Source: Cytobacillus oceanisediminis 2691 (GTDB lineage Bacteria; Bacillota; Bacilli; Bacillales; Cytobacillaceae). From it: a DNA stretch of 64,000 bases. The position numbers and the translations under genes are program-made. Positions 28,964 to 43,354 of this stretch are shown one piece after another. The stretch lies in contig NZ_VEEP01000001.1 of the NCBI RefSeq assembly GCF_007678455.1, positions 124,001 to 188,000 of the forward strand. Direction: 5' to 3'. Under the pieces are notes generated by a model, which was not told where the DNA came from, searched no databases, and saw only the letters and a program-made list of their open reading frames with translations. Within the stretch, counting starts at the first letter, position 1, and the number at the start of each line of letters is the position of its first letter.

Positions 28964-31900
28964 ATGCAGGGAACATTGCCATTGATCAAAACAAAGCTGA
29001 TTGTCCCCAGTTTGCAGGAACAATGGATCAGGCGTGCGGATTTTTCGAAGAAAATGAAAGCGATTACCGAAAAACGGCTGACCGTTATCCAGGCAGGGGC
29101 AGGTTATGGGAAGAGTACCGCTCTCGCGATGTATGTCAGGGACCAAAACGAGCAATGCTGCTGGTATACCATCACTTCTTCCGATGACGATATTCTCCCG
29201 TTTTTATCCTATTTGACAGCTTCGATCCAAACCTTGTTCCCGGACTTTGGCTTTGAATTAACAGCCTATATGAAAAAGATGGATCGCTATATAAGAGAAG
29301 AGGAATTAAGCATGCTCTCTTCGCTTTTCATCAACGAAACCTTGCAAATACCTGCGCCAATTATCGTCATCCTGGATGATTTCCACGCAATAGAACATTC
29401 CTACCATATCAATGTCTGGATGGAAAAGCTGCTTGAGCATATGCCAGACCATCTTCATCTCGTCATTTCGACCAGGACGAAGCCGGGTTGGAAGGTTCTT
29501 GCCAAAATGAAGGCAAGGAATGAGTTGAATGAGATTTCGAAAAGCGATTTGATTTTTGGCAAGGAAGAAATCGAATTACTGCTCTCTGACTATTATCAAA
29601 TGACAATCAGTGACGAACAAATCGACCAATTGTACAACATTACTGAAGGCTGGGTCATCGCGGTCGGAATGATTGCTCAGCAGCTGCCTCATCTTCAGAG
29701 TCTTGATGACCTTTTAACGGAGCCTGCAAAGTCGCTGGAGGATTTGTTTCAATACCTGGTTCATGAAGTATTCTCAAAACAGCCTCCGATGATTCAGCAG
29801 TTCCTCGAGCAGACCTGCATTTTCGAAGAAATCAGCTCTGAAGTATGTGATCACATACTTGGCATGAACGGTTCAGTCCAGATGCTGCAGCAGCTGGCAG
29901 CGAAAAACCTGTTCATTCATCAAGTTGGCGAGAACCAATTCCGCTATCATGCTCTTTTCCGTGAGTTCCTCGAGAATCGGCTGCTCACAAACCGGCCAGA
30001 GCATTACCATTATTTGATTTTGAACAGTGGACGTTATTTTGAAAAGAACGGACAGTGGGAAGAAGCTTTATACTGCTATGAAAAGGCCGGCCAATATAAT
30101 GCAGCAGCAGCGATTATGGATGAACAGGGATTGGAACTCCTTGAGAGGGGCAAACTCGAGAATCTGCAGGAGCGGCTGGTAAAAATCCCACAGGAAAATA
30201 AAGAGCGCTATTGTTCCCTATTATTCCTGGAAGGTGAGGTTTATCGCTACCGGTCCATGTACCAGCAGGCGGAAAGATGTTATGAAAAAGCGATCCAGAC
30301 AGCTGAGAGTACCGGCAATGTGGAGTGGGAAAGCAGAGCGCTTGAAGGAAAAGCAAAAATATATCTTGATACAATTCAGCCTCTGAAAGCGGAACGTATT
30401 TTGGCCAGGGCAATCGAACTCAGGGAAACAGCAAAGCTCGAGGGCACAGCCAAGGGAACAGGGAGACTGTACAGGCTGCTTGCCGAAAACCTGATCAATT
30501 CTGGACAGGCAGTGAAAGCTGAAAAATGGATTGAACGGGCGAGGGCGATGGGGGTGCAGATTGAAGACGGGAACCTTGAGGCTCGTCTCTACCTTAGGAC
30601 CGGCCGATTCGCTGAGACCAGGAGGATTTTAACGGATATAAAGGGAGTGGATAAGCTCCACCTGCCCCTATCCCATCGGGAAACAGACTTGTTGTTGGCA
30701 TTGATTGAAGCTTTTACAGGCAATGGAATGCAAGCGAAGATCCTGTCCCAGTCAGGCATTGAACATGGGATCAACAGCAAGGCACCATTCGTGGAGGCGT
30801 GCGGCTGGATCAGAATGGGGCATGCTGTTCAGCTGATTGATCAATACGATCTGGAGATGGCAGAAAAATGCTATGAAACTGCACTCGATATTATGGGCCG
30901 GCTGAGCATCGAAAGAGGGAAGGCTGAACCGCTGATGGGCCTTTGCATACTCTATGGGTCAAGAAGGGAATATGAGCGTTCTGCCGAGGCTGGAAGAAAG
31001 GCGCTGCTTGAAACGGAACAGGTGAAGGATGTTTGGCTTTCTGCCTTGATCACGCTTTGCATGTCAATCTCGGCCATTTACAATGACAGGTTCAAGGAAG
31101 CAGCCGAATTCCTGAGAAAAGCAGAGGAATTGTTCTATCAGTGCGGTGATGAGTATGGCAAAATGCTGCTGTCATTCTGGGATTCAGTTCAATATTTTAC
31201 ATTAGGCGATGAAGAAGGTTTCAAAACGGCATTCGCCAGCTTTTTAAAAAGAATGAAAACTGGTGGATATGAATTTTTCCTGAAAAAGAAGACGACATTT
31301 GGCCCCCGGGACTTGCAGATCCTCTCCCCGATGCTGATTCAGGCAATGAAGCTTTCAATTGTTCCGGCATATACGGAGAAGCTGATGGAGGATTTAAAAA
31401 TTCCACGCCTTAATGCCCATCCTGGCTATACGTTAAGGGTTCAGACTCTGGGACAATTCCGTCTTTGGCTTGGGGATAGGGAAGTGGAGGACAGAAGCTG
31501 GCAAAGAGGGAAGGCGAAAGAGCTTTTCCAGCTTTTCCTGACAAAAAGGAATCAGTTCTTGATGAAAGAAGATATCTTTCAGATTCTGTGGCCAGCATAT
31601 GAGGATAAAAATGCAGACAGAGATTTCAAAGTCGCGCTGAATGCTTTGAACAATGTCCTTGAACCTGCACGTAAGGCAAGGGCAGCCCCGTTTTTCGTCA
31701 TCAGGGATGGGACTGGTTATGGAATAAATCCTCACGCAGCGATAGAGCTGGATTCACGCCTTTTCGAAGAATGGGCAGAAACCGGTCTGGAAGAGAAGAA
31801 CACCGAAAAATCAATAGAGGAACTAGAACGCGCATTGCATTTATATAATGGGGATTATCTCCCGGAACGGAGATATGAAGACTGGTGCATCAATGAGCGG

Positions 31901-32194
31901 GAAAGGCTGCTGGTCTATTTTTTGCGCAGTGCCGAGAAACTGGCACAGCTGAATGTTAGGCGTGAAAACTATGACTCTGCCATCCACTGGTGCCAAAAAA
32001 TCCTCCACAAGGATCGAACATGGGAGGAAGCGTATAGACTATTGATGTTTTGCTATTATCGAAAAAACAATCGTCCACAGGCAATCCGGTGGTATCGGAA
32101 GTGTTGTGACGTACTGGAGGAAGAGCTAGGTGTAACTCCGCTTGAACCGACCAGGCATATGTATGACATGATCATCGAAGGAACGAATGCGTGA
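28964..32194 (+). CDS. Large STAND-type transcriptional regulator with TPR and C-terminal SARP-like wHTH-BTAD
   Basis: A 1076-aa MalT/LAL-type signal-transduction ATPase. Walker A is GAGYGKST (45-52) and Walker B is IVILDD (134-139). A winged-helix and helical STAND region runs to about 400, then TPR-like repeats from about 370 to 780. Instead of the usual LuxR helix-turn-helix, the C-terminus has an OmpR-like winged helix (about 824-920, LGQFRLWLGDREVEDRSWQR) followed by a bacterial transcriptional activator domain (BTAD, about 924-1070), the output module of SARP activators. It precedes the Liv/acyl-CoA cluster, whose promoters carry SARP-style direct repeats. The inducing ligand is unknown. 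Confidence 0.88.
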   Translation: MQGTLPLIKTKLIVPSLQEQWIRRADFSKKMKAITEKRLTVIQAGAGYGKSTALAMYVRDQNEQCCWYTITSSDDDILPFLSYLTASIQTLFPDFGFELTAYMKKMDRYIREEELSMLSSLFINETLQIPAPIIVILDDFHAIEHSYHINVWMEKLLEHMPDHLHLVISTRTKPGWKVLAKMKARNELNEISKSDLIFGKEEIELLLSDYYQMTISDEQIDQLYNITEGWVIAVGMIAQQLPHLQSLDDLLTEPAKSLEDLFQYLVHEVFSKQPPMIQQFLEQTCIFEEISSEVCDHILGMNGSVQMLQQLAAKNLFIHQVGENQFRYHALFREFLENRLLTNRPEHYHYLILNSGRYFEKNGQWEEALYCYEKAGQYNAAAAIMDEQGLELLERGKLENLQERLVKIPQENKERYCSLLFLEGEVYRYRSMYQQAERCYEKAIQTAESTGNVEWESRALEGKAKIYLDTIQPLKAERILARAIELRETAKLEGTAKGTGRLYRLLAENLINSGQAVKAEKWIERARAMGVQIEDGNLEARLYLRTGRFAETRRILTDIKGVDKLHLPLSHRETDLLLALIEAFTGNGMQAKILSQSGIEHGINSKAPFVEACGWIRMGHAVQLIDQYDLEMAEKCYETALDIMGRLSIERGKAEPLMGLCILYGSRREYERSAEAGRKALLETEQVKDVWLSALITLCMSISAIYNDRFKEAAEFLRKAEELFYQCGDEYGKMLLSFWDSVQYFTLGDEEGFKTAFASFLKRMKTGGYEFFLKKKTTFGPRDLQILSPMLIQAMKLSIVPAYTEKLMEDLKIPRLNAHPGYTLRVQTLGQFRLWLGDREVEDRSWQRGKAKELFQLFLTKRNQFLMKEDIFQILWPAYEDKNADRDFKVALNALNNVLEPARKARAAPFFVIRDGTGYGINPHAAIELDSRLFEEWAETGLEEKNTEKSIEELERALHLYNGDYLPERRYEDWCINERERLLVYFLRSAEKLAQLNVRRENYDSAIHWCQKILHKDRTWEEAYRLLMFCYYRKNNRPQAIRWYRKCCDVLEEELGVTPLEPTRHMYDMIIEGTNA

Positions 32195-32215: not shown

Positions 32216-32611
32216 ATGGAAAGGCAGATTCATAGTTCGCTAAAGGTATTGCTAGTTTCAGATCTTGATCGTGCAAAGAAATTTTATTCGGAAGTATTAG
32301 GCTGCGAAGTAACGGACTGGTGGGTAATCCGGGATGGCTTTACAGGGCTTGGAATCAAACTGCTGGAAGCAAGCGATCCAAAAGACGTCAGGCCAAATCC
32401 TCCGCCGAAAGGGTCAGACATTGGTATTGACTTATATTGTTATGTCGAGGATTGGAAGGCACTGGATGAACTTTATCACGAATTTAAATCAAAAGGTGCT
32501 CCTATAGTGATCGAACCGTGGGTGGATGAAAATAATGGACCCTGGAAGGAATTTGCCATTAAGGACCTTGATGGCTACTGTATCGCCTTTGGCGGGACAG
32601 ATGGCTCATAA
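32216..32611 (+). CDS. VOC (glyoxalase/dioxygenase) superfamily protein
   Basis: A 131-aa single-domain protein with the beta-alpha-beta-beta-beta pattern of the vicinal-oxygen-chelate fold: LKVLLVSDLDRAKKFYSEVLG at the start and PWKEFAIKDLDGYCIAF at the end, where the metal-ligand Glu is expected. Substrate unknown. It starts 22 bp after the regulator stop with AAGGAGGAGAAGGG and so is probably co-transcribed with it. It might act on, or bind, a compound of this pathway. Confidence 0.8.
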   Translation: MERQIHSSLKVLLVSDLDRAKKFYSEVLGCEVTDWWVIRDGFTGLGIKLLEASDPKDVRPNPPPKGSDIGIDLYCYVEDWKALDELYHEFKSKGAPIVIEPWVDENNGPWKEFAIKDLDGYCIAFGGTDGS

Positions 32612-33347: not shown

Positions 33348-33380
33348 TGTAACTCATTTGTAACTGCATTTTTTTAAGAT
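33348..33380 (+). promoter_or_regulatory. SARP-type heptamer direct repeat and -10 of the Liv operon
   Basis: TGTAACT at 33348-33354 and again at 33359-33365 (perfect copies, 4-bp spacer, 11-bp period). Nine bases on, TAAGAT (33375-33380) can serve as -10. The position 17 bp upstream of it has no -35-like hexamer. The same element with the same 9-bp offset occurs at 41776-41808. Confidence 0.7.
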
Positions 33381-33384
33381 GATG

Positions 33385-33403
33385 TCAAAGCTTGTGGCTT
33401 TGA
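33385..33403 (+). promoter_or_regulatory. Inverted repeat at the expected transcription start of the Liv operon
   Basis: TCAAAGC-TTGTG-GCTTTGA, seven-base perfect arms. It could be an operator at +1 or a 5-prime stem in the mRNA; no T run follows. Confidence 0.45.
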
Positions 33404-33429
33404 TGCAACATTTTAAAGGGGGAGAGAAA

Positions 33430-34674
33430 ATGAAAGCGGGTAAACGGAATTTTGCTTTATCTTTTATGCTTATTTTGGTCCTGTTGTTCACGAGTGCCTG
33501 TGGCGGATCGGGAACAGAGAAGTCAGGTGGAACAGAAGGAAAAGAAGGGAAGGATGAACCGAAAAACACGGAACCGATCAAGATCGGCGTCCTGGCTTCA
33601 CAAACAGGCGGGCTTGAGGCTTATGGGAAGCAGACACTTCGAGGGTTCGAGCTTGGTCTGGAATATGCTACTGATGGAACCAATGAAGTAGCCGGCCGTA
33701 AAATCGAATTCATTGTCGAAGATACGGAAACAAAACCAGAGGTAGCTGTCCAGAAAGCAACAAAGCTTCTTGAGGAAGATGAAGTTGATTTCCTTGTGGG
33801 TTCATCAAGCTCTGGTGACACCCTGGCAGTCCTGCCATTGGCTGAGGAATATGAAAAGATCATGATTGTAGAACCTGCTGTTGCAGACAGCATTACCGGA
33901 TCCGAATTCAATGAATATATTTTCCGCACAGCGCGGAATTCTTCACAGGATGCTGTAGCAGGTGCTGCTGCAATTGCCAAGAAAGGCGTGAAAATCGCTA
34001 CTCTTGCACCGGATTATTCGTTTGGCCGTGATGGCGTCTCGGCTTTCAAGGAAGCAGCAGAAAAACTCGGCGCAGAAATCATCCATGAAGAATACGCAGA
34101 TCCTGCTGCAACGGACTTCACTTCGAACATCCAGAAAATCATCGACCAGAAGCCGGATTACTTATTCGTTGTCTGGGCTGGCGCCAACTCACCATGGAAC
34201 CAGATTGCTGACATGAAGGTCCAGGAAAAAGGCATTAAAATTTCTACCGGTGCTCCTGATATCGCTGCACTTTCGACAATGGAGCCGCTGATTGGCATGG
34301 AAGGCTTTACTGTTTATTATCATGATCTTCCGCAAAATGACATTAATAAATGGCTCGTGGACGAACATAAAAAACGCTTTAATGGCGAACTGCCCGACCT
34401 GTTCACTCCAGGAGGCATGACAGCTGCGATGGCAATCGTAGAAGCCTTGAAGAAAACCGAAGGAAACGCGGACTCCAAGAAACTGATCAAAACAATGGAA
34501 GGCATGAGTTTTGACACTCCGAAAGGCAAGATGACCTTCCGGGAAGAGGACCATCAGGCACTCCAGGCATTATACGCCATCAAGCTGGAGAAAAAGGATG
34601 GAGTCAACTATCCAGTCCCAGTCCTGATCCGTGAACTGTCACCGGAAGAAACGGCTCCTCCGGTACGCAATTAA
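33430..34674 (+). CDS. Liv-type ABC transporter substrate-binding lipoprotein
   Basis: A 414-aa lipoprotein with a signal peptide ending at SAC-GG (Cys about 24) and a long Ser/Gly/Glu linker. A Peripla_BP_6 (LivJ/K-type) fold follows, starting IKIGVLASQTGGLEAYGKQT. Relatives bind branched-chain amino acids, amides, urea or aromatic acids. The neighbouring acyl-CoA enzymes suggest a carboxylate ligand here (inference). The ATG at 33430 has AAAGGGGGAGAG. A large hairpin separates it from the rest of its operon. Confidence 0.88.
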   Translation: MKAGKRNFALSFMLILVLLFTSACGGSGTEKSGGTEGKEGKDEPKNTEPIKIGVLASQTGGLEAYGKQTLRGFELGLEYATDGTNEVAGRKIEFIVEDTETKPEVAVQKATKLLEEDEVDFLVGSSSSGDTLAVLPLAEEYEKIMIVEPAVADSITGSEFNEYIFRTARNSSQDAVAGAAAIAKKGVKIATLAPDYSFGRDGVSAFKEAAEKLGAEIIHEEYADPAATDFTSNIQKIIDQKPDYLFVVWAGANSPWNQIADMKVQEKGIKISTGAPDIAALSTMEPLIGMEGFTVYYHDLPQNDINKWLVDEHKKRFNGELPDLFTPGGMTAAMAIVEALKKTEGNADSKKLIKTMEGMSFDTPKGKMTFREEDHQALQALYAIKLEKKDGVNYPVPVLIRELSPEETAPPVRN

Positions 34675-34685
34675 CTTAAATGTCC

Positions 34686-34728
34686 ATAATGAACTTCGGT
34701 AAATCAGCCGGAGTTCATTATACTTTTA
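34686..34728 (+). terminator. Operon-internal hairpin after the binding-protein gene
   Basis: ATAATGAACTTCGG (34686-34699) pairs with CCGGAGTTCATTAT (34708-34721): 14 bp with one G-U wobble, then ACTTTTAC. The weak T run suggests a leaky terminator or an RNA-stabilising stem that keeps binding protein in excess over the membrane genes. Confidence 0.7.
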
Positions 34729-34759
34729 CTCCAATATTCTAAAGGTGGTGAACCAAAGC

Positions 34760-35533
34760 ATGACGGCAATTCTCGAAACAAAAAATCTTAGCATAACATT
34801 TGGCGGCCATACCGCGGTGGACTCTGTCAGCATCTCGGTACCCCCTAACCATTTCAAATCGATCATCGGGCCAAACGGTGCTGGCAAGACGACATTCTTC
34901 AATTTGTTAAGCGGTCAGCTTACTCCGACCGAAGGACAGGTCTTCTTTAAAGGCAATGAGATTACCAGGCTGTCACCGACAAAAAGGACGAGGGCCGGAA
35001 TCGGCCGCTCCTTTCAAATCACCAATGTCTTTCCAAACCTGACAGTGATGGAAAATGTCCGTCTTGCGGTCCAGTCGCATGAGGGAATCCGCTATCAAAT
35101 GCTTAAACACTTCCAATCCTACAATAAATTCGAGGAGCAGGCAGAGGAGTGGCTGAAGCTTGTGCTGCTGGATGACAGGAAGGATGCACTTGCGAGGAAT
35201 CTGGCCCATGGAGAAAAAAGAAAGCTAGAAATCGCAATGCTGCTTGCCTTGAACACAGAAGTGCTCTTACTTGATGAACCGACAGCGGGAATGTCACTGG
35301 AAGAGGTTCCGGCCATACTTGACGTCATCCGTAAAATCAAACAACGGGGCGACAGGACGATTGTATTGATCGAGCACAAAATGGATATGATCATGGATCT
35401 CTCTGATACGATCATGGTTTTGTTCAACGGCGCGTTGCTTGCTGACGGAACTCCTGAAGAAATCATGAAAAATGAGACAGTCCAGTCTGCATATTTGGGA
35501 GGGTTGCATAGTGAGCACGCTGCTAAAGCTTGA
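34760..35533 (+). CDS. livG: Liv-type ABC transporter ATP-binding protein LivG
   Basis: A 257-aa ATPase. Walker A is GPNGAGKTTFFN, Walker B is LLLDEPTAGMS, and the LivG-type loop is RAGIGRSFQITNVFPNLTVMENV. The signature motif reads LAHGEKRKLE in place of LSGGQ, which is normal for LivG. The ATG at 34760 is used (AAAGGTGG upstream). Its 3-prime end overlaps livF by 23 nt. Confidence 0.92.
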   Translation: MTAILETKNLSITFGGHTAVDSVSISVPPNHFKSIIGPNGAGKTTFFNLLSGQLTPTEGQVFFKGNEITRLSPTKRTRAGIGRSFQITNVFPNLTVMENVRLAVQSHEGIRYQMLKHFQSYNKFEEQAEEWLKLVLLDDRKDALARNLAHGEKRKLEIAMLLALNTEVLLLDEPTAGMSLEEVPAILDVIRKIKQRGDRTIVLIEHKMDMIMDLSDTIMVLFNGALLADGTPEEIMKNETVQSAYLGGLHSEHAAKA

Positions 35534-36218
35534 TCAAATAGAAACATTCATCGGCCAGTACCATATCCTTCAAGGAGTATCTTTTGAGGTGCCGAAAGGC
35601 GAAGTGACGGTACTTCTTGGCCGTAATGGCGCCGGGAAAACAACGACCCTCAGGACCATCATGGGATTGAATCCGGCTGCCAAGGGATCTGTTTTATATA
35701 AAGGTGAGGAAATCAAGAGCCTGCCAACCTACACAATCGCCAATAAAGGAATCGGTTATGTGCCCGAAGATCAGGGGGTTTTCGCTGACCTGACCGTCGA
35801 AGAGAACATCAAGGTGGCAGTCAAGAAAGAAAATGATGAAACCAGTCAGCGGCTTGACTGGATACTGGATCTGTTCCCTGACTTGAAAAAGTTTTGGAAC
35901 AAGCCAGGCGGACTGCTTAGCGGAGGGCAAAAACAAATGCTCTCGATCGCCAGGGCCTATGTAAATGACAATGAATTGCTGCTGATTGACGAGCCAAGCA
36001 AGGGCCTTGCCCCGATTGTCGTCGAGAAGGTCATGGAATCGATCCAGCAAATGAAAGAAAAAACGACCATCATCCTCGTGGAGCAGAATTTCATGATGGC
36101 CAGCACGATTGGAGACAGCTTCTACATTATTGATGATGGCAGGACGGTTTCGAACGGTTCAATGAATATTCTGCGGGATGATGAAGAAATGAGAAGGAAG
36201 TATCTCGGGATTGCCTGA
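35511..36218 (+). CDS. livF: Liv-type ABC transporter ATP-binding protein LivF
   Basis: A 235-aa ATPase partner of LivG. Walker A is GRNGAGKTTTLR, the signature is LLSGGQKQM, and Walker B is LLLIDEPSKGLAP. It starts with GTG at 35511, inside the end of livG, after GGGAGGG. It forms the nucleotide-binding heterodimer of the importer. Confidence 0.92.
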   Translation: MSTLLKLDQIETFIGQYHILQGVSFEVPKGEVTVLLGRNGAGKTTTLRTIMGLNPAAKGSVLYKGEEIKSLPTYTIANKGIGYVPEDQGVFADLTVEENIKVAVKKENDETSQRLDWILDLFPDLKKFWNKPGGLLSGGQKQMLSIARAYVNDNELLLIDEPSKGLAPIVVEKVMESIQQMKEKTTIILVEQNFMMASTIGDSFYIIDDGRTVSNGSMNILRDDEEMRRKYLGIA

Positions 36219-36235
36219 GAAAGGGGGAAGCAAGT

Positions 36236-37096
36236 GTGGATGTTTTGATAAACCTGAGCCTTAACGGCCTTGCCACAGGAATGCTGGTCTTTCTTCTGGC
36301 AGCCGGTCTCACTTTGATTTTTGGCCTGATGGATGTGCTTAATTTTGCCCATGGCGGCTTGTTTGCCTGGGGAGCCTACAGCGGGATTTGGATTTATACA
36401 TCGACAGGCAGCTTTCTTGCCGGAATCATTGGTGCCATCCTTACGGGCATGATTCTTGGAATCGTGACGGAACGGTGGATCATCAAGCCGGTATACGGCA
36501 ACCACGTACAGCAAATTTTGATCACGCTCGGTTTGATGCTTGTTTTATCCGAAATGTTAAAAGTCGTCTGGGGACCGAACCAGATTTCAGCAGCCACGCC
36601 TGATTATCTGTCTGGCAGCTGGGAATTCGGCGGAATCATCATCATCAAATACCGTGTCTTCATCATTGCCGTCGGATTCGCGGTGTTTCTCGCCGTCCAA
36701 TATTTGCTGAAGAAAACAAAGATCGGTCTCGTTGTTCGTGCGGGTGTCATGAACAAAGAAATGGTCCAGTCGCTGGGAATCAATATTCAGAAGGTCTTTA
36801 TGTTTGTATTCATGATCGGAGCAGGCATGGCGGCACTTGGAGGCATGCTGTTAGGACCTTATTCCGGAGTGATTTATGCCGATATGGGCATGGAGTTCGC
36901 CATCCTGGCGTTCATCGTTGTCGTCATCGGCGGCATGGGCAGCTTCACAGGCTCGGTGATGGCGGCAATTTTAGTCGGTCTGTCAGGTTCTTTCATGGCC
37001 TATTATGTACCGGACCTGGCACTGGCTGCGAACATGCTGCTGATGGCAGTCGTGCTTATTTTCAGGCCTCAGGGCTTGTTCGGGGCAAAGGGGTGA
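36236..37096 (+). CDS. livH: Liv-type ABC transporter permease LivH
   Basis: A 286-aa permease with about eight membrane spans and BPD_transp_2 landmarks: LSLNGLATGMLVFLLAAGLTL, FGLMDVLNFAHGGLFAWGAY and VVIGGMGSFTGS. It starts with GTG at 36236 after AAAGGGGGAAG. It is the first of the two permeases and is followed after 7 bp by livM. Confidence 0.92.
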   Translation: MDVLINLSLNGLATGMLVFLLAAGLTLIFGLMDVLNFAHGGLFAWGAYSGIWIYTSTGSFLAGIIGAILTGMILGIVTERWIIKPVYGNHVQQILITLGLMLVLSEMLKVVWGPNQISAATPDYLSGSWEFGGIIIIKYRVFIIAVGFAVFLAVQYLLKKTKIGLVVRAGVMNKEMVQSLGINIQKVFMFVFMIGAGMAALGGMLLGPYSGVIYADMGMEFAILAFIVVVIGGMGSFTGSVMAAILVGLSGSFMAYYVPDLALAANMLLMAVVLIFRPQGLFGAKG

Positions 37097-37103
37097 AGCG
37101 GAA

Positions 37104-38114
37104 GTGATAAAGATGTTTTCAAATCGCATGAATATATTGTATTTACTTGCTGCCGTGTTTTTGGCTGTTCTCCCTTTTGTCTATGACTCAAGGAGCATGC
37201 TCATCCTGCTCTCACAGGTTTTCATTTTTGCCGTGCTTGCGATGAGCTATGACATCCTGCTCGGATACACGGGCATTGTCTCCTTCGGACATGCGATGTT
37301 TTTCGGGATCGGTGCTTACACGGTTGGTGTCTTCATGAAAAGATTCGAACCGGAAACGAGCTATTTTTTGCTGGCCGTATTGGTCACGATTTTACTTACA
37401 GCACTTGTCAGTTATTTTGTCGGCCTGCTCACGCTAAGGCTGAAAAGCCATTTTTACGCGATGCTGACGCTGGCCTTTGCCGGGTTGTTCCTCGTGCTTG
37501 CTGAAAAATGGCGGACAGTCACATATGGAAATGATGGATTCACATTCAGAGTCCCGGACTTTTTAAAGGACCGGACGGATTTTTACCTGATTTGCCTTGG
37601 CTCCATGGTGATTGTGTTCATCTTATTGAAAAGGTTCACGAACTCGCCGCTCGGAAAGGTGCTTCAGGCCATCCGGGAAAATGAGCAAAGGACGGAGTCA
37701 CTGGGATACAGCGTCCTGCAGTATAAGGTCATTGCAAGTGTGGTGTCCGGAGTGATTGCCGGGATCGCAGGAATTTTGTATGCCGTCTCCCTCAGGTTTG
37801 TCAACACGAGTGTATTCACGATGGATATCACTCTCGACGCCTTGCTGATGACGATCATCGGCGGAGTCGGAACGCTAGTAGGTGCCATCATTGGCGCCGG
37901 GATCATCGAATTCTCCCACCACTGGCTGACAGAACTGGCAAAGGTCCACTGGATCTTTGAAAGATGGATCATCTTTTTTGGAATCATTTATATACTCGCT
38001 GTCATGTTCTTCCCGATGGGGATTGTCGGTTCCTTAAAGAAGTTGAAATTCAGCAGGAAAAAGAAAGCACCTGCTTCCTTAAATTCGGATGCCGTCAGTC
38101 AGGGCGAGTCATGA
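37104..38114 (+). CDS. livM: Liv-type ABC transporter permease LivM
   Basis: A 336-aa permease with eight to ten spans. LivM landmarks are YDILLGYTGIVSFGHAMFFGIGAY, VLQAIRENEQRTESLGYSVLQYK and TIIGGVGTLVGAIIGA. GTG start at 37104. The stop overlaps the next small gene (ATGA), which links the importer translationally to the enzymes that follow. Confidence 0.92.
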   Translation: MIKMFSNRMNILYLLAAVFLAVLPFVYDSRSMLILLSQVFIFAVLAMSYDILLGYTGIVSFGHAMFFGIGAYTVGVFMKRFEPETSYFLLAVLVTILLTALVSYFVGLLTLRLKSHFYAMLTLAFAGLFLVLAEKWRTVTYGNDGFTFRVPDFLKDRTDFYLICLGSMVIVFILLKRFTNSPLGKVLQAIRENEQRTESLGYSVLQYKVIASVVSGVIAGIAGILYAVSLRFVNTSVFTMDITLDALLMTIIGGVGTLVGAIIGAGIIEFSHHWLTELAKVHWIFERWIIFFGIIYILAVMFFPMGIVGSLKKLKFSRKKKAPASLNSDAVSQGES

Positions 38115-38293
38115 TGGAGATGCAGCAAGTCACCTCATTCGTGCTCCGCTTCCAGCTTACAGACATTGAAGCCGGAAGCGGCAAAAAATATTGGCGTGTC
38201 AAAGTTACCCATGTTCAGGATGAAAAGGAAGCCTTGTTTCAATCAATCGATGAGGCGATGGCTTATATCAAGGGAATTGTAGGAGAATGCTAG
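38111..38293 (+). CDS. Small conserved-looking protein of the Liv/acyl-CoA operon, 60 aa
   Basis: A 60-aa ORF whose ATG overlaps the livM stop (ATGATGG) and whose stop lies 44 bp before the next start. The product is soluble, with a beta-rich N-terminal half (FVLRFQLTDIEAG, then KKYWRVKVTHVQ) and a helix QSIDEAMAYIKGIV. The tight coupling and coherent composition argue that it is real. I know no family; it could be an accessory subunit of the KAS-like enzyme downstream. Confidence 0.6.
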   Translation: MMEMQQVTSFVLRFQLTDIEAGSGKKYWRVKVTHVQDEKEALFQSIDEAMAYIKGIVGEC

Positions 38294-38337
38294 TTTTACA
38301 GGCAGAGAATGAGCCATTTGCAAGGAGGGCTGAATAC

Positions 38338-39354
38338 GTGCAGATCGGGATTGTCAGCACAGGAATCTATCTTCCGGAAACATATATAACAGGAAGGGAA
38401 ATTGCTCGGGCAGCAGGAATTCCGGAAATGGTTGTGGAAGAAAAAATGGGAATCAAGAAAAAGCCTGTTCCTGGTCAGGAAGACCATACATGTGAGATGG
38501 GAATCAGGGCTGCAAAGACGGCAATCGAAAAAGCGGGTATCGATCCGATGGAGATTGATCTGGTGATCTATATCGGTGAGGAATACAAGGAGTATCCATT
38601 ATGGACTGCCGGAATCAAGCTTCAGGAAGAAATCGGCGCTTATAATGCCTGGGCATTTGATACAGCATTGCGTTGCGGGACGACAGTCATGGCATTGAAA
38701 CTTGCCAGGGGCATGATGCTGTCCGACCCTGAAATCAAAACGGTGCTGCTGGCTGGCGGCTATCGGAACGGGGATTTCATCGACTACCAGAATCCGCGGA
38801 CCCGCTTCATGTACAATCTCGGAGCAGGCGGCGGGGCGATTTTACTGAAAAAGGGCCATCAGGAAAATCTGCTGCTCGAAACAGAAATGATTACTGACGG
38901 GTCTTTTTCCGAGGATGTCGTCGTGGTTGCAGGGGGAACGAAAAATCCGCTTTCGGCAGAAAGTCTGAAGCGGGGTCTTTATCAGCTTGATGTCCTCGAT
39001 CCACAGGGAATGAAAGAAAGGCTGGAGCAAAAGTCGATGGCCAACTTCCTGAAGGTCATCCGCCGTTCTGTGGAAAAAAGCGGTTTTTCAGAAAAAGATA
39101 TTTCATACATTGGGATGCTGCATATGAAGCGTTCCGCACACCAGTTTGTTTTACAGGAATTAGGACTGGGTGAATCAAATTCTATTTATCTCGAAGACTA
39201 TGGACATATCGGCCAGATTGACCAGATCCTGTCGCTGGAACTGGCTGAAAAGGCAGGGAAGCTGAAGAATGGTGATGTTGTAGTCCTTGTCAGTGCCGGG
39301 ATCGGCTATGCCTGGGGAGCAACAACTATACGCTGGGGGAAGGGTGAAGCTTGA
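38338..39354 (+). CDS. KAS III/thiolase-fold condensing enzyme with Cys-His-His site
   Basis: A 338-aa protein of the FabH/HMG-CoA-synthase-like fold. The nucleophile is Cys113 (FDTALRCGTTVMAL), aligned with FabH Cys112, and H262 in GMLHMKRSAHQF fits the first histidine. Where FabH has the catalytic Asn (YGN), this protein has YGH with His290. GTG at 38338 is chosen because AAGGAGGG lies upstream; the ORF can be extended to 38287 without a ribosome-binding site. A 3-ketoacyl-CoA-forming or -cleaving role is inferred from the neighbours. Confidence 0.8.
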   Translation: MQIGIVSTGIYLPETYITGREIARAAGIPEMVVEEKMGIKKKPVPGQEDHTCEMGIRAAKTAIEKAGIDPMEIDLVIYIGEEYKEYPLWTAGIKLQEEIGAYNAWAFDTALRCGTTVMALKLARGMMLSDPEIKTVLLAGGYRNGDFIDYQNPRTRFMYNLGAGGGAILLKKGHQENLLLETEMITDGSFSEDVVVVAGGTKNPLSAESLKRGLYQLDVLDPQGMKERLEQKSMANFLKVIRRSVEKSGFSEKDISYIGMLHMKRSAHQFVLQELGLGESNSIYLEDYGHIGQIDQILSLELAEKAGKLKNGDVVVLVSAGIGYAWGATTIRWGKGEA

Positions 39355-40257
39355 ATGGAGAGAACGGCTGTTGAATTGAAAAAGGTGGAATTGCCGAACG
39401 GTGAAAGCATTACTTACCGGGAACGGGACGGCGGCGTGAAAAACGTGCTGCTGATCCATGGAAACATGACATCGTCGAAGCATTGGGATGTGCTGATTGA
39501 TCAGATGAATCCGGAGTATAAAGTGTATGCGATGGACATGAGGGGATTCGGCGGCTCGAGTTACCGCAAGCCCATCATGTCAATCAAGGATTTTTCCGAT
39601 GATGTAAAGCTGTTTGTCGACGAAATCGGGTTAAATAATTTTTCACTTGTTGGCTGGTCGACAGGTGGTGCGGTAGGAATGCAGTTTGCTGCTGATTATC
39701 CTGGCTATTGCGAAAAACTGGTGCTGCTCGCCTCTGCGTCAACAAGGGGTTACCCGTTCTTCGGAACGAGTCCGGAAGGCTTGCCTGATCTGGACAATCG
39801 ACTTAAGACGTATGATGATGTTAAGGCGGATACCGGAAAAACGATTGCTGTCCAGACTGCATACGACGGGCAGAATAGAGGATTTTTAAAGGCGATGTGG
39901 AATATGTTGATCTATACCGAGCGTCAGCCGGAAGCAGCACATTATGAAGAGTATGTCGATGATATGCTGACACAGCGAAATCTGGCAGAGGTCTATCATT
40001 CTCTCAATAGTTTTAATATCAGTGGTGTTGATAACGGTTTGGGGATGGGGACAGATCAGGTAAAGGATATCCAGATTCCTGTCCTAGTCCTCCGAGGTGA
40101 CCGCGATCTTGTTGTCACAAGCAAGATGGCCGACGAAATTGTCGAGGATTTTGCAGGTCGTGCAAGATTTGCAGAGTTGAAGAATTGCGGCCATTCGCCA
40201 CTAGTGGATGATTTGGATCAGCTGCTAAGGCATATCGATGGATTTTTAGCAGAATAG
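39355..40257 (+). CDS. Alpha/beta hydrolase, similar to intracellular PHB depolymerase of bacilli
   Basis: A 300-aa alpha/beta hydrolase. The oxyanion region is LLIHGNMTSSKHWD, the lipase box is G100-W-S102-T-G-G, the acid is in VLRGDRDLVV, and the final His is in LKNCGHSPLVD. The length and the position of the nucleophile (Ser102 in a G-W-S-x-G-G box) agree with the intracellular poly(3-hydroxybutyrate) depolymerase described in B. thuringiensis, as I remember it. Other ester or thioester substrates remain possible. The start directly abuts the KAS gene stop, and the SDR gene follows after 12 bp. Confidence 0.8.
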   Translation: MERTAVELKKVELPNGESITYRERDGGVKNVLLIHGNMTSSKHWDVLIDQMNPEYKVYAMDMRGFGGSSYRKPIMSIKDFSDDVKLFVDEIGLNNFSLVGWSTGGAVGMQFAADYPGYCEKLVLLASASTRGYPFFGTSPEGLPDLDNRLKTYDDVKADTGKTIAVQTAYDGQNRGFLKAMWNMLIYTERQPEAAHYEEYVDDMLTQRNLAEVYHSLNSFNISGVDNGLGMGTDQVKDIQIPVLVLRGDRDLVVTSKMADEIVEDFAGRARFAELKNCGHSPLVDDLDQLLRHIDGFLAE

Positions 40258-40269
40258 GAAGGTGTTTTT

Positions 40270-41010
40270 ATGAGACTGCAAGATAAAGTAGCGATCATTA
40301 CCGGAGGGGCAAATGGGATTGGCCTTGCCGCAGCGAAAACCTTTGTGCGTGAAGGCGCACGGGTGGCAATGGCGGATTTTGATGAGGAAACAGGATCACA
40401 GCGCGCAGCCGAGCTCAAAGCAGAAGGCTATGAAGCAGCCTTTTTCCAGGTGAACGTCGCTGATAAGGATAGCGTGGATTCGATGGTAAAGGATGTTCTG
40501 TCCCATTTTGGCAAGATTGATATTCTTGTAAATAATGCAGGCATCACAAGGGACGGGATGCTGCACAAACTCGCTGTGGAGGATTTTCAGAAAGTTGTTG
40601 ATGTCAACCTGACAGGCGTCTTCCATTGCGCCCAGGCCGTTGTCCCGGCAATGGTCCAGCAGGGATCTGGAAGAATCATCAATACCTCTTCCGTCTCCGG
40701 CATTTACGGCAATGTCGGCCAGACCAACTACGCAGCAACAAAGGCGGGGGTTGTCGGGATGACGAAAACCTGGGCAAAAGAGCTCGGCCGCAAAGGAATC
40801 AACGTCAATGCCGTCGCCCCAGGATTCATTGAGACCGGCATGACAGCTAAAGTACCGGAAAAGGTGATTGAGCAAATGAAAATGCTCGTCCCGCTCGGCA
40901 GACTGGGCTTGCCCGAGGATATCGCGAATGCCTACCTCTTCCTGGCCTCAGATGAATCAAAATATGTGAATGGCACCACCCTCCATGTGGACGGCGGAAT
41001 CATGATGTAA
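40270..41010 (+). CDS. SDR-family 3-oxoacyl reductase (FabG-like)
   Basis: A 246-aa classical short-chain dehydrogenase. The NAD(P)-binding motif is TGGANGIG (11-18), NNAG is at 88-91, and the catalytic residues are S141, Y154 and K158 (YAATK). The C-terminus YVNGTTLHVDGGIMM is FabG-like. It probably interconverts 3-hydroxyacyl and 3-ketoacyl thioesters for this pathway, not for housekeeping fatty-acid synthesis, because it is the last gene of the Liv/KAS/hydrolase operon. A strong terminator follows. Confidence 0.88.
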   Translation: MRLQDKVAIITGGANGIGLAAAKTFVREGARVAMADFDEETGSQRAAELKAEGYEAAFFQVNVADKDSVDSMVKDVLSHFGKIDILVNNAGITRDGMLHKLAVEDFQKVVDVNLTGVFHCAQAVVPAMVQQGSGRIINTSSVSGIYGNVGQTNYAATKAGVVGMTKTWAKELGRKGINVNAVAPGFIETGMTAKVPEKVIEQMKMLVPLGRLGLPEDIANAYLFLASDESKYVNGTTLHVDGGIMM

Positions 41011-41015
41011 TGTTG

Positions 41016-41044
41016 AAAAAGCGCACTTGCTGCGCTTTTTTTTA
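41016..41044 (+). terminator. Intrinsic terminator of the Liv/acyl-CoA operon
   Basis: AAAAAGCGC / GCGCTTTTT (41016-41040) with an ACTTGCT loop and a continuing T run. Confidence 0.88.
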
Positions 41045-41080
41045 TTTTGAGAAGACGTCGAAATTGGAGAGTAAATATTC

Positions 41081-41243
41081 CAACCGGGAATATATTTGCT
41101 GCAACCGTTAAATAAATCATCCCAACCGTATAATAAATTGTCTCAACCGTTAAATAAATCGAGCCAACCGTTAAATAAATCCTCGAGCCGTGAAAAAACC
41201 TTCCAACTGGTAAAAAAAGTCGATTCCACCGGTATTAAAACTA
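41081..41243. repeat. Eight-copy, about 21-bp intergenic repeat
   Basis: CAACCG-type cores start at 41081, 41102, 41123, 41144, 41165, 41185, 41204 and 41226 (spacings 21, 21, 21, 21, 20, 19, 22). Three central copies share the block CAACCGTTAAATAAATC, with a variable 4-base linker between copies; the outer copies are degenerate. The array begins soon after the terminator at 41016-41044 and no ORF is supported in it. Confidence 0.85.
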
Positions 41244-41393
41244 ACTATTCCCACACCAAATGGCCAAAAAGCTCCCTAAAATACCAAAAATGCATTGCAC
41301 TTCTAACCTTTTCAGTCTGCCGATAATCAGTTTTTGGGGGTTAACTTCCCTCCAAAAGTGGTAAATGGTATAAAAAAGATTGAGGTGCTGTAC

Positions 41394-41726
41394 ATGGAAG
41401 AGCAAAAACAGAGGTATTACTTCAATATAGAAAGCGGCGAGGTGCTGGATACGCCAGCAGATCAGGAGGGCCATTTCTTCACGTTGATCGCGACAGGAGA
41501 GGAAATCAAGGATCTGCGCGAGTACCTGGAAGTGAACTATAAAGCAGACTGGGCGACTTACGGGAATTCCCATCTGCACCCTTTCAAGGACCCGGATCGC
41601 GAGCATGCAGAATATGACATGGCCTTGAAGGAGATTTACGCAATGGTTTACAGACTTGGCGATGCCGAGTCAAAGAATCATGTGAGAAATATGGGCATCT
41701 TATCAGAAGAAGAGTTAATTAAATAA
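41394..41726 (+). CDS. Hypothetical protein, 110 aa
   Basis: An acidic, soluble 110-aa protein beginning MEEQKQRYYFNIESGEVLDT, with a HPFKDPDREHAEYDMALKEI stretch and a C-terminal NMGILSEEELIK. The ATG at 41394 has TGAGGTG upstream; a longer in-frame form reaches back to 41334. I cannot assign a family. It lies between the SDR operon and the CoA ligase and has its own terminator. Confidence 0.65.
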   Translation: MEEQKQRYYFNIESGEVLDTPADQEGHFFTLIATGEEIKDLREYLEVNYKADWATYGNSHLHPFKDPDREHAEYDMALKEIYAMVYRLGDAESKNHVRNMGILSEEELIK

Positions 41727-41734
41727 GCGACCCG

Positions 41735-41767
41735 AACACCATGGCCATCCAGGCTGTGGTGTTTTTT
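41735..41767 (+). terminator. Intrinsic terminator of the 110-aa gene
   Basis: AACACCA (41735-41741) / TGGTGTT (41757-41763) with an inner GCC/GGC pairing, then TTTT. Confidence 0.75.
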
Positions 41768-41775
41768 GCATTCGA

Positions 41776-41808
41776 TGTAACTATCCTGTAACTCCCAATC
41801 TTTAAAAT
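41776..41808 (+). promoter_or_regulatory. SARP-type heptamer direct repeat and -10 of the CoA-ligase gene
   Basis: TGTAACT at 41776-41782 and 41787-41793 (perfect copies, 4-bp spacer ATCC, 11-bp period). Nine bases on comes TAAAAT at 41803-41808. The -35 position holds no consensus hexamer. It has the same sequence and geometry as the element at 33348-33380. Confidence 0.72.
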
Positions 41809-41842: not shown

Positions 41843-43354
41843 GTGAGGTGGGAGCTCGATTGGCTTGAATCAAGAGCGAGATTGACACCGGACGCTGCTG
41901 CGATCGCTGATGCCGGTACAGGTCAGGAATGGTCGTTCAGGGAAGTCAATGAACGAGCCAGGGCGATTGCGGCATGGATGCAGGGAATTGGTGTCAAAAA
42001 AGGCGACAGGATTGCAACGCTTGCGCCCAACGGGGTCAGTTACTTCGATTTATTATTCGCCTGTGGGAAGATTGGTGCTATTTTTGTGCCTTTGAACTGG
42101 AGGCTATCGGTGGATGAATTAGCCTTTATCATACAAGACAGTGAACCGGCGCTGCTGGCGTTCCATTCGAAATTCACAAAAGAAGTGACGATGGTCTGGG
42201 ATCAAGCAGGCCAGTGCATCCAAATCAATGGTTCACACTATCAGGATTTGATTACTAGTCCGAAGCAAATCCAGCCTGTCGATCTGGATGAAGAAGACCC
42301 GCTGGCGATGATTTATACAGGAGGGACGACCGGAAAGCCAAAAGGTGCTGTTCTGTCACATCGAGCGATCATCTGGAACAGCATTTCGACCATTGCGAGC
42401 TGGAACCTGACAGATGATGACAAGACGATCACCTATTTGCCTTTATTTCACACAGGCGGGCTGAATGCTCTGTCGATCCCCATCCTGATGGCAGGTGGGA
42501 CGGTCGTGCTGGGGGATGAATTTACTCCTGAAAAAGCGATTGAATATTTGATCAGGCATAAATGTACGATCGTATTGTTTGTGCCGACGATGCACCACAT
42601 GCTAGTAAAATCAAAAGAGTTCCAGCAAGCGGAATTCAGGGATATGAAATTGTTTTTATCTGGCGGGGCTCCGTGCCCGCTGGATATCTATGAAGCTTAT
42701 AAAAAGAAAGGCCTGGCCTTCAAAGAGGGATACGGCCTGACGGAGGCTGGCCCGAATAATTTTTTCATCGATCCTTCAGATGCGGATGTCAAAAGAGGTT
42801 CGGTCGGCAAACCGATGTTATTCACCTGCATCAAGGTCATCAGAGACGATGGAAGTGAAGCGCCAGCCGGTGAAATCGGCGAGTTGGCGATCAGGGGCAA
42901 GCATGCCTTCTCGTATTATTGGAAAAATGACAGCGCGACTCAAAATGCCTGGAAAGATGGATGGCTCCACACCGGCGACCTTGCCAGACAGGATGAAGAA
43001 GGGTTTTTCTATATCGTCGGCAGGAAAAAGGAGATGATCATCACAGGCGGAGAGAATGTTTATCCCCTGGAAATCGAGCACTGGCTAAGCTCACATCCTT
43101 CCATCCTGGAAGCCGCGGTAATCGGTGTGCACGATGAAAAATGGGGTGAAGCCGTGACGGCATTCATCGTCCTTGAAAGAGAAGCAGCGTTAAGCGGAGA
43201 TGGGGTAAAGGAATATTGCAGAAAAAAGCTGGCTGGCTATAAAGTGCCGAAACAGATCCACTTTATCACTCACATGCCAAAAACGCATGTCGGGAAAATT
43301 GACAAAAAGCTGTTAAAGGAAATGACTAGTAAAAATCAGAAGCCAGTCAGCTGA
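41843..43354 (+). CDS. AMP-dependent acyl-CoA ligase
   Basis: A 503-aa ANL-superfamily enzyme. The ATP motif is [17 protein letters not shown], then GYGLTEAGP, the hinge GDLARQDEEGFFYIVGRKKE and the C-terminal lysine MPKTHVGKIDKK. The substrate acid is not predictable; relatives are annotated as fatty-acyl-, benzoate- or o-succinylbenzoate-CoA ligases. GTG start at 41843 (GGGAGAG upstream). Its promoter carries the TGTAACT repeat, tying it to the Liv operon, so it probably activates the acid that the importer brings in or that the hydrolase releases. Confidence 0.88.
   Translation: MRWELDWLESRARLTPDAAAIADAGTGQEWSFREVNERARAIAAWMQGIGVKKGDRIATLAPNGVSYFDLLFACGKIGAIFVPLNWRLSVDELAFIIQDSEPALLAFHSKFTKEVTMVWDQAGQCIQINGSHYQDLITSPKQIQPVDLDEEDPLAMIYTGGTTGKPKGAVLSHRAIIWNSISTIASWNLTDDDKTITYLPLFHTGGLNALSIPILMAGGTVVLGDEFTPEKAIEYLIRHKCTIVLFVPTMHHMLVKSKEFQQAEFRDMKLFLSGGAPCPLDIYEAYKKKGLAFKEGYGLTEAGPNNFFIDPSDADVKRGSVGKPMLFTCIKVIRDDGSEAPAGEIGELAIRGKHAFSYYWKNDSATQNAWKDGWLHTGDLARQDEEGFFYIVGRKKEMIITGGENVYPLEIEHWLSSHPSILEAAVIGVHDEKWGEAVTAFIVLEREAALSGDGVKEYCRKKLAGYKVPKQIHFITHMPKTHVGKIDKKLLKEMTSKNQKPVS

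Follow-up and report, generated by a model that had tools for sequence, protein, structure and literature searches.

Streptomyces antibiotic regulatory proteins (SARPs) act at operators composed of heptameric direct repeats with an 11-bp period (PMC10936776, PMC10972967). For AfsR of Streptomyces coelicolor (a large SARP; PDB 8HVR, 8K60, 8JKE), a pair of protomers makes contact with the first 8 bp of the 11-bp repeats located at –40 to –30 and –29 to –19, the contacted bases being –40 to –33 and –29 to –22, and sigma region 4 rests on the protomers and not in the –35 groove (PMC10936776); the existence of an inducer is left unresolved. For PimR, a SARP-LAL regulator, two heptamers with 4-nt spacers are enough for binding (PMC5930380). 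SARPs are found mainly in actinomycetes (PMC10936776), and a 2024 review describes them as exclusively actinobacterial and the SARP domain of large SARPs as N-terminal (PMC10972967). A SARP-family response regulator has also been described in Deinococcus (PMC3564903), which places the domain as such beyond Actinobacteria. Here we describe a locus of Cytobacillus oceanisediminis 2691 (Bacillales) in which the direct repeat TGTAACT-N4-TGTAACT, followed after 9 bp by a –10-like hexamer, precedes both an ABC importer operon and an acyl-CoA ligase gene, close to a gene for a protein ending in a winged helix and a BTAD. As judged by genome comparison, TGTAACT-N4-TGTAACT-N9-TANNNT is very probably the operator–promoter of this adjacent SARP-type activator, which would govern the use of poly(3-hydroxybutyrate) (PHB) breakdown products in Bacillales.

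The window analysed is a 64,000-nucleotide stretch (assembly GCF_007678455.1, contig NZ_VEEP01000001.1, positions 124,001 to 188,000); coordinates below count from its first letter, and the regulator gene, the operators and the genes of the cluster all lie on its + strand. The first pair (TGTAACT CATT TGTAACT, 33348–33365) is followed after 9 bp by TAAGAT (33375–33380), the predicted –10 of the importer promoter, and the second (TGTAACT ATCC TGTAACT, 41776–41793) after 9 bp by TAAAAT (41803–41808), that of the ligase promoter, exactly as given in an initial annotation of this DNA. The annotation had also held that neither promoter has a –35, which is borne out at a 17-bp spacer: the bases there are ACTCAT (importer) and ACTATC (ligase), and at both promoters the operator overlaps this absent or poor –35, as in SARP promoters. 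An exact search agrees with it that the window contains no other such pair; with up to 3 mismatches, 8 matches were found in the window versus 3.2 expected. The complete genome (4.9 Mb) contains exactly these two exact copies, with none of the reversed control pattern and ~0.06 expected from the base composition of the window, which together rule out a chance origin of the pair. With 2 mismatches allowed, the genome gave 16 matches versus 54 for the reversed control; since this pattern is not enriched, only exact or near-exact copies are meaningful. A pattern with Y at two places per heptamer, N9-TANNNT and 1 mismatch recovered the same two sites only (control 0).

To define the element in related bacteria, genome contigs were searched with an alignment of the regulator, and the best 80 of 234 confirmed stretches were used as regulator loci. 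A motif-free analysis of these loci found TGTAACT to be the commonest heptamer repeated as H-N4-H (58/80 loci), the next four being three shifted frames of TGTAACT and TGTAACC. On the regulator strand, TGTAACT pairs occur at 77 sites, always with N4 (spacings of 0–29 were scored); the opposite strand has N2 pairs only, in 2 loci. TANNNT lies exactly 9 bp downstream in 77/77 of the exact sites, and among 72 distinct sites the N4 and N9 bases vary while the heptamers and the period are fixed. The gene that follows is the importer in 52 cases, the ligase in 21, FabG in 1 and unassigned in 3. A weight matrix built from the 72 distinct sites (best score in 40 reversed loci, 14 bits) found versions with one or two mismatches in 14 of the 22 loci that have no exact site; among the remaining 8, neither an importer nor a ligase gene was matched at E 1e-20 in 6, and in the other 2 the importer start is truncated. 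At a threshold of 19 bits, fixed after the null distribution was known, the element is upstream of the importer in 71/71 evaluable loci (2 more could not be evaluated) and of the ligase in 33/35, these counts describing presence and not a blind test, as the matrix was derived from the same loci. In the two ligase misses (L181 and L182) the ligase gene lies ~20 bp after FabG.

With the –10 set at –12 to –7, the upstream TGTAACT copy spans –39 to –33 and the downstream one –28 to –22, which matches the register of AfsR: two direct repeats of 11-bp period over the –35 region, with the 8 bp contacted by AfsR ending at –22, as the heptamer does here. The SARP-like geometry put forward in the annotation stands for the period and the overlapped –35 and is off by one for the –10, which follows the 3′ repeat by 9 bp on a strict heptamer count versus 8 bp in SARP promoters; the gap is 8 only when the repeat is counted one base longer.

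The occurrence of the element was compared with that of the regulator across 193 family genomes, counting the regulator at E <= 1e-60. Of these, 82 contain the exact element and 88 the regulator: both in 80, regulator only in 8, element only in 2 and neither in 103 (Fisher p 4e-42, a figure inflated by relatedness). Eight genera hold both kinds of genome, and the association is significant alone in 3 of them, in the same order of counts g1 (19, 0, 0, 2; p 0.005), g17 (7, 0, 1, 28; p 1e-6) and g49 (39, 2, 0, 20; p 4e-14), and not in the other 5, among which g3 and g8 have no genome with both. The importer provides a control, for which its binding protein was run against 80 of the 105 regulator-less genomes. 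A relative with 69–81% identity is present in 18, and the element is upstream of 0/18 (best –1.7 bits, at least 3 mismatches). In these comparisons the element goes with the regulator gene and not with the target gene. A scan with TGTAACY-N4-TGYAACY-N9-TANNNT in 28 of 83 regulator-positive genomes, picked for spread over families, gave 53 sites in 26/28 (reversed control 0 in all 28). Of these, 51 lie close to the regulator (up to ~14 kb away) or directly in front of a depolymerase gene; the other two are on separate contigs (G433:C35 and G499:C34), the former preceding a ligase (L328). Thirty of the sites were assigned by BLAST to 12 importers, 12 ligases, 3 depolymerases, 1 PhaZ-like protein and 2 unassigned genes, the starts of which read like the importer lipoprotein and the ligase. 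Hits in the own and related genomes thus cluster with the regulator, and the annotation's proposal of a complete, locally encoded SARP-type regulon is strongly supported by genome comparison, with binding as a prediction. The proposal had placed it "in a Bacillus"; the regulon part of that phrase is supported, whereas the host is not Bacillus sensu stricto.

At the PhaZ-like site (L311, G334:C22:269662), the operator lies just downstream of the regulator and before a hydrolase 30% identical to the PhaZ of the cluster, possibly an extra target. Elsewhere, the regulator match of G069 (L107, L108) has six in-frame stops and its operators persist; there, the ligase gene is bordered by open reading frames (ORFs) that read like reverse transcriptases of group II introns.

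The regulator (28964–32194) is a 1076-residue protein with a MalT-like STAND ATPase, TPR families and, at its C-terminus, an OmpR-type winged helix (residues ~820–925) followed by a BTAD (929–1070; E 5.7e-22), which is the order of these two parts in SARPs. The C-terminal 264 residues were modelled from a 38-row alignment (pLDDT 93), and the best PDB fold matches of the model, AfsR (Foldseek E 3.5e-11, TM 0.76) and EmbR (E 1.1e-9), span the whole winged helix–BTAD domain. The model and the BTAD match uphold the annotation's view that the gene product ends in a SARP-like domain. Support from sequence alone is weaker: Trans_reg_C (PF00486) matches the window protein at E 0.044, below the cut-off, and is found in 22/25 homologues (best 2.2e-6); a whole-domain profile found AfsR at E 1e-5, ranked behind designed TPR proteins. 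AfsR likewise combines winged helix and BTAD with NOD/STAND and TPR parts, but in AfsR, as in PimR, the SARP domain is N-terminal (in large SARPs as described, ATPase and TPR come after it), whereas here the order is ATPase, TPR, winged helix–BTAD. The identity to AfsR over the domain is ~20%, and the repeat sequence, the Bacillales host and the catabolic targets (importer, ligase and polyhydroxyalkanoate (PHA) depolymerase) also differ; SARPs as described belong to Actinobacteria and natural-product clusters. PimR similarly joins its SARP domain to a large ATPase half and binds heptamers with 4-nt spacers, but its consensus is CGGCAAG and its target an antibiotic regulator gene (PMC5930380). 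The likeness to enterobacterial MalT is limited to the N-terminal ATPase region (230 bits against the MalT model PRK04841, far below its cut-off of 537) and the TPR sensor region: no LuxR/GerE family was found in the regulator at E 0.001 in a Pfam-type family search, the winged helix–BTAD replacing the LuxR-type helix-turn-helix. EmbR of Mycobacterium tuberculosis (PDB 2FEZ) shares the winged helix–BTAD fold and differs in having an FHA domain and, presumably, no ATPase half. A comparison of recognition helices with AfsR was dropped, as the sequence alignment is too weak for residue claims.

Autoregulation was considered and rejected: no site was found within 700 bp upstream of the regulator in any of the 71 loci (of 80) with a regulator start at position 10001; sites flagged in L117, L134 and L137, among the other nine loci, are downstream of their regulator. 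One regulator 97% identical to that of the window comes from a record titled Chryseobacterium sp. ISL-80 (L161), which looks like a mislabelled Mesobacillus. G025, G043, G045, G050 and G060 encode short proteins (open frames of 372–387 residues) that weakly resemble the BTAD end, indicating that further BTAD regulators exist in other Bacillales.

The function of the regulon is suggested by the genes that carry the element away from the regulator. Distant exact elements (one each in G001, G046, G061 and G069, two in G039) precede secreted-type proteins, and all six score above the cut-off for extracellular type-1 short-chain-length PHA depolymerases. Among the 193 family genomes, 19 have a depolymerase match at E 1e-20, and 25 genes were examined. 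Those with at least 53% identity carry the heptamers with 0–1 mismatches in 7/7 cases (six at 55–69% and a short fragment in G030), the sites in G107, G077 and G080 being new relative to the element search; among those with up to 49% identity, 5 of them in regulator-positive genomes, the element is present in 0/18 (best 6.7 bits), the 53%/49% split having been chosen after the result was known. The search was extended to 328 genomes of the order, where a depolymerase match was found in 32 and 30 loci were examined as the best gene per genome (G286, G389 and further copies were left out). In regulator-positive genomes, 13/14 depolymerase genes have the element with 0–2 mismatches and TANNNT at N9, the miss being G244; excluding G039 and G046, which were known from the element search, 11/12 were found independently. 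Where the regulator is missing, meaning no match at E 1e-100 with two candidates scored in each genome, it is present at 0/16 (best 3.1 bits, at least 4 mismatches). Depolymerase sites played no part in the construction of the weight matrix. Depolymerases with the element are found in six tool-labelled families (f1, f4, f6, f11, f21, f28), and the secreted depolymerase is the only recurrent outside target seen, so that in relatives the regulon appears to be one of polyester catabolism, an extension to extracellular PHB depolymerases that goes beyond the first reading of the locus.

On this comparison of target genes, the regulon most likely serves the utilisation of PHB or 3-hydroxybutyrate. 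The cluster itself likely takes up and activates 3-hydroxybutyrate or its oligomers, because an intracellular short-chain-length PHA depolymerase, a reductase, a KAS-like enzyme and a CoA ligase stand by the importer and the secreted depolymerase recurs. We hypothesize that the half of the protein with the MalT-like ATPase and TPR region detects an inducer, the most likely ones being 3-hydroxybutyrate, its oligomers and a CoA derivative, and that two copies of the C-terminal winged helix–BTAD domain occupy the two heptamers, next to each other and on the same DNA face. From that position the regulator would bring RNA polymerase to a promoter with a –10 and without a –35, as AfsR does. In the own genome it would turn on the importer operon, whose product would carry 3-hydroxybutyrate or its oligomers, and the CoA ligase gene; in relatives its targets would further include genes for secreted PHB depolymerases at other chromosomal positions.

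Several observations weigh against this assignment. Eight regulator-positive family genomes have no exact element; six of them were covered (G062, G129, G021, G212, G145 and G026, the last with a regulator fragment only; G184 and G207 were left out), and all six have a one-mismatch element with N9-TANNNT. The two family genomes with the element only are G101 and G076, the copy in G076 preceding an unrelated ORF and having no –10. Among 24 genomes of other families, 7 have an exact copy; the full regulator is present in G039, G044, G046 and G056 and absent from G040, G057 and G060, in all three of which TANNNT at N9 is missing. In favour of the assignment, the chance-like exact copies (G040, G044, G057, G060, G076, G082, G189) have TANNNT at N9 in 0/7 cases, compared with 77/77 at the regulator loci. 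TANNNT is at N8 instead of N9 at the G107 importer site and the G030 depolymerase-fragment site; the depolymerase sites of G107 (TTTGAT at N9) and G030 also have none at N9. Scores below 19 bits were obtained for the depolymerase sites of G077, G080 and G030, and for those of G334 (11.5 bits) and G279 (17.7 bits), which by the threshold rule reduces 13/14 to 11/14. A profile made from the regulator without its TPR part did not list AfsR at E 1 and gave PhoB at 0.035, and the AfsR residues that contact bases have no obvious conservation in the regulator. The own genome has no secreted depolymerase of the tested type at E 1e-20, so for this strain the link to PHB rests on relatives and on the intracellular depolymerase of the cluster; the strain may live on products released by others. 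Finally, the element sites are linked by common ancestry and the counts are not independent events.

Two of these genomes are of separate interest. G101 (L104) has no regulator, and an exact operator and –10 remain before a seemingly decayed ligase gene, possibly a fossil of regulon loss. G107 (L093) has the most divergent regulator of the family (42% identity) and an exact importer operator with the –10 at N8, and regulator and spacing possibly co-vary.

The alternative that survives best is that the regulator binds the element and the regulon serves another acyl substrate, such as a branched or short-chain hydroxy acid, with the depolymerases recruited secondarily in part of the lineages. 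In its favour, the importer is similar to those for urea and branched-chain amino acids, with scores under the cut-offs of those models, and a close depolymerase is missing from the majority of regulon-carrying genomes (19/193 genomes have any match at E 1e-20). However, an intracellular short-chain-length PHA depolymerase lies within the cluster, with a relative in 52/66 loci longer than 22.5 kb, and no outside target other than the depolymerase recurs, as it does in six families; we regard another substrate as rather unlikely.

A further candidate is PhoP of the phosphate regulon, which had been named as an alternative in the annotation and which would drive the genes of this cluster under phosphate starvation. 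PhoP binds TTHACA repeats, which the reverse complement of the heptamer, AGTTACA, resembles in sequence and period. The winged helix of the regulator is also distantly PhoB-like, as noted above, and AfsR and PhoP have a common box in Streptomyces (PMC10972967). The genome comparison runs the other way: the importer orthologues of regulator-less genomes lack the element (0/18; the presence of PhoP in those genomes was not checked), and no other result argues as strongly against PhoP, or against any other regulator without a tie to this gene. In addition, 103/105 of the regulator-less family genomes have no exact copy, each site has two repeats only at a near-fixed distance from the –10, and the own genome has two copies only. 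The regulator-less controls rule out PhoP as the sole binder, and we consider a PhoP site highly improbable.

Equally improbable is conservation of the repeats for some other reason, for example as the site of an unlinked co-inherited regulator: physical linkage of most sites to the regulator gene could inflate the correlation, but the mostly unlinked depolymerase sites track the regulator (13/14 vs 0/16), the spacer bases vary where heptamers and period do not, and a site upstream of the –10 should not be transcribed from its own promoter.

Returning to the SARP-type activator, we consider it probable, with less confidence than the operator assignment, that the SARP mode of activation (a dimer lying side by side on 11-bp repeats that take the place of the –35) is old and widespread in Bacillales, and that a STAND ATPase with a C-terminal SARP domain is there the sensor of 3-hydroxybutyrate or its oligomers and governs a dedicated PHB-scavenging regulon comprising secreted depolymerase, a Liv-type importer for 3-hydroxybutyrate or oligomers, intracellular depolymerase and CoA ligase. 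Among the matches listed in literature searches there is no SARP or BTAD regulator of PHB genes and no SARP operator in Bacillales; as far as these tell, the regulator, the importer and the inducer would all be unreported. If correct, this would be a well-defined SARP-type regulon outside Actinobacteria, with reversed domain order and an operator sharp enough for genome-wide target prediction. It would offer a tractable Gram-positive model in which to study the gating of a SARP domain by STAND ATPases. It also yields a prediction of the way in which many Bacillales detect and import what is released from the biodegradable plastic PHB, with a testable importer substrate.

The remaining genes of the cluster are as follows. 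Between regulator and importer lies a gene for a glyoxalase/VOC-fold protein (32216–32611; Pfam Glyoxalase E 2.2e-10). The importer operon begins with a Liv/Urt-type substrate-binding lipoprotein (33430–34674; Peripla_BP_6 E 5.9e-69), the start of which is likely ATG 33430, as a start at 33379 overlaps the –10; the ribosome-binding site was also considered. It is followed by LivG/UrtD-like and LivF/UrtE-like ATPases (34745–36218) and LivH- and LivM-like permeases (36236–38114), all of which match transporter models below their cut-offs. Next are a KAS III/HMG-CoA-synthase-like enzyme of the PRK06840 family (38287–39354; 533 bits versus a cut-off of 315), the intracellular short-chain-length PHA depolymerase (39355–40257; i_nPHAscl, NF050089, 454 bits versus 300), and, from a family-model search, a FabG-type 3-oxoacyl/3-hydroxyacyl reductase (40270–41010). 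A 130-residue protein without a match in family searches (41334–41726) precedes operator 2, and the acyl-CoA ligase (41843–43354; FadD/MenE-like, AMP-binding E 4.5e-84) follows it. A small ORF at 37964–38293, without a family match, overlaps the end of the permease gene, and a similar frame is present at the same place in L181.

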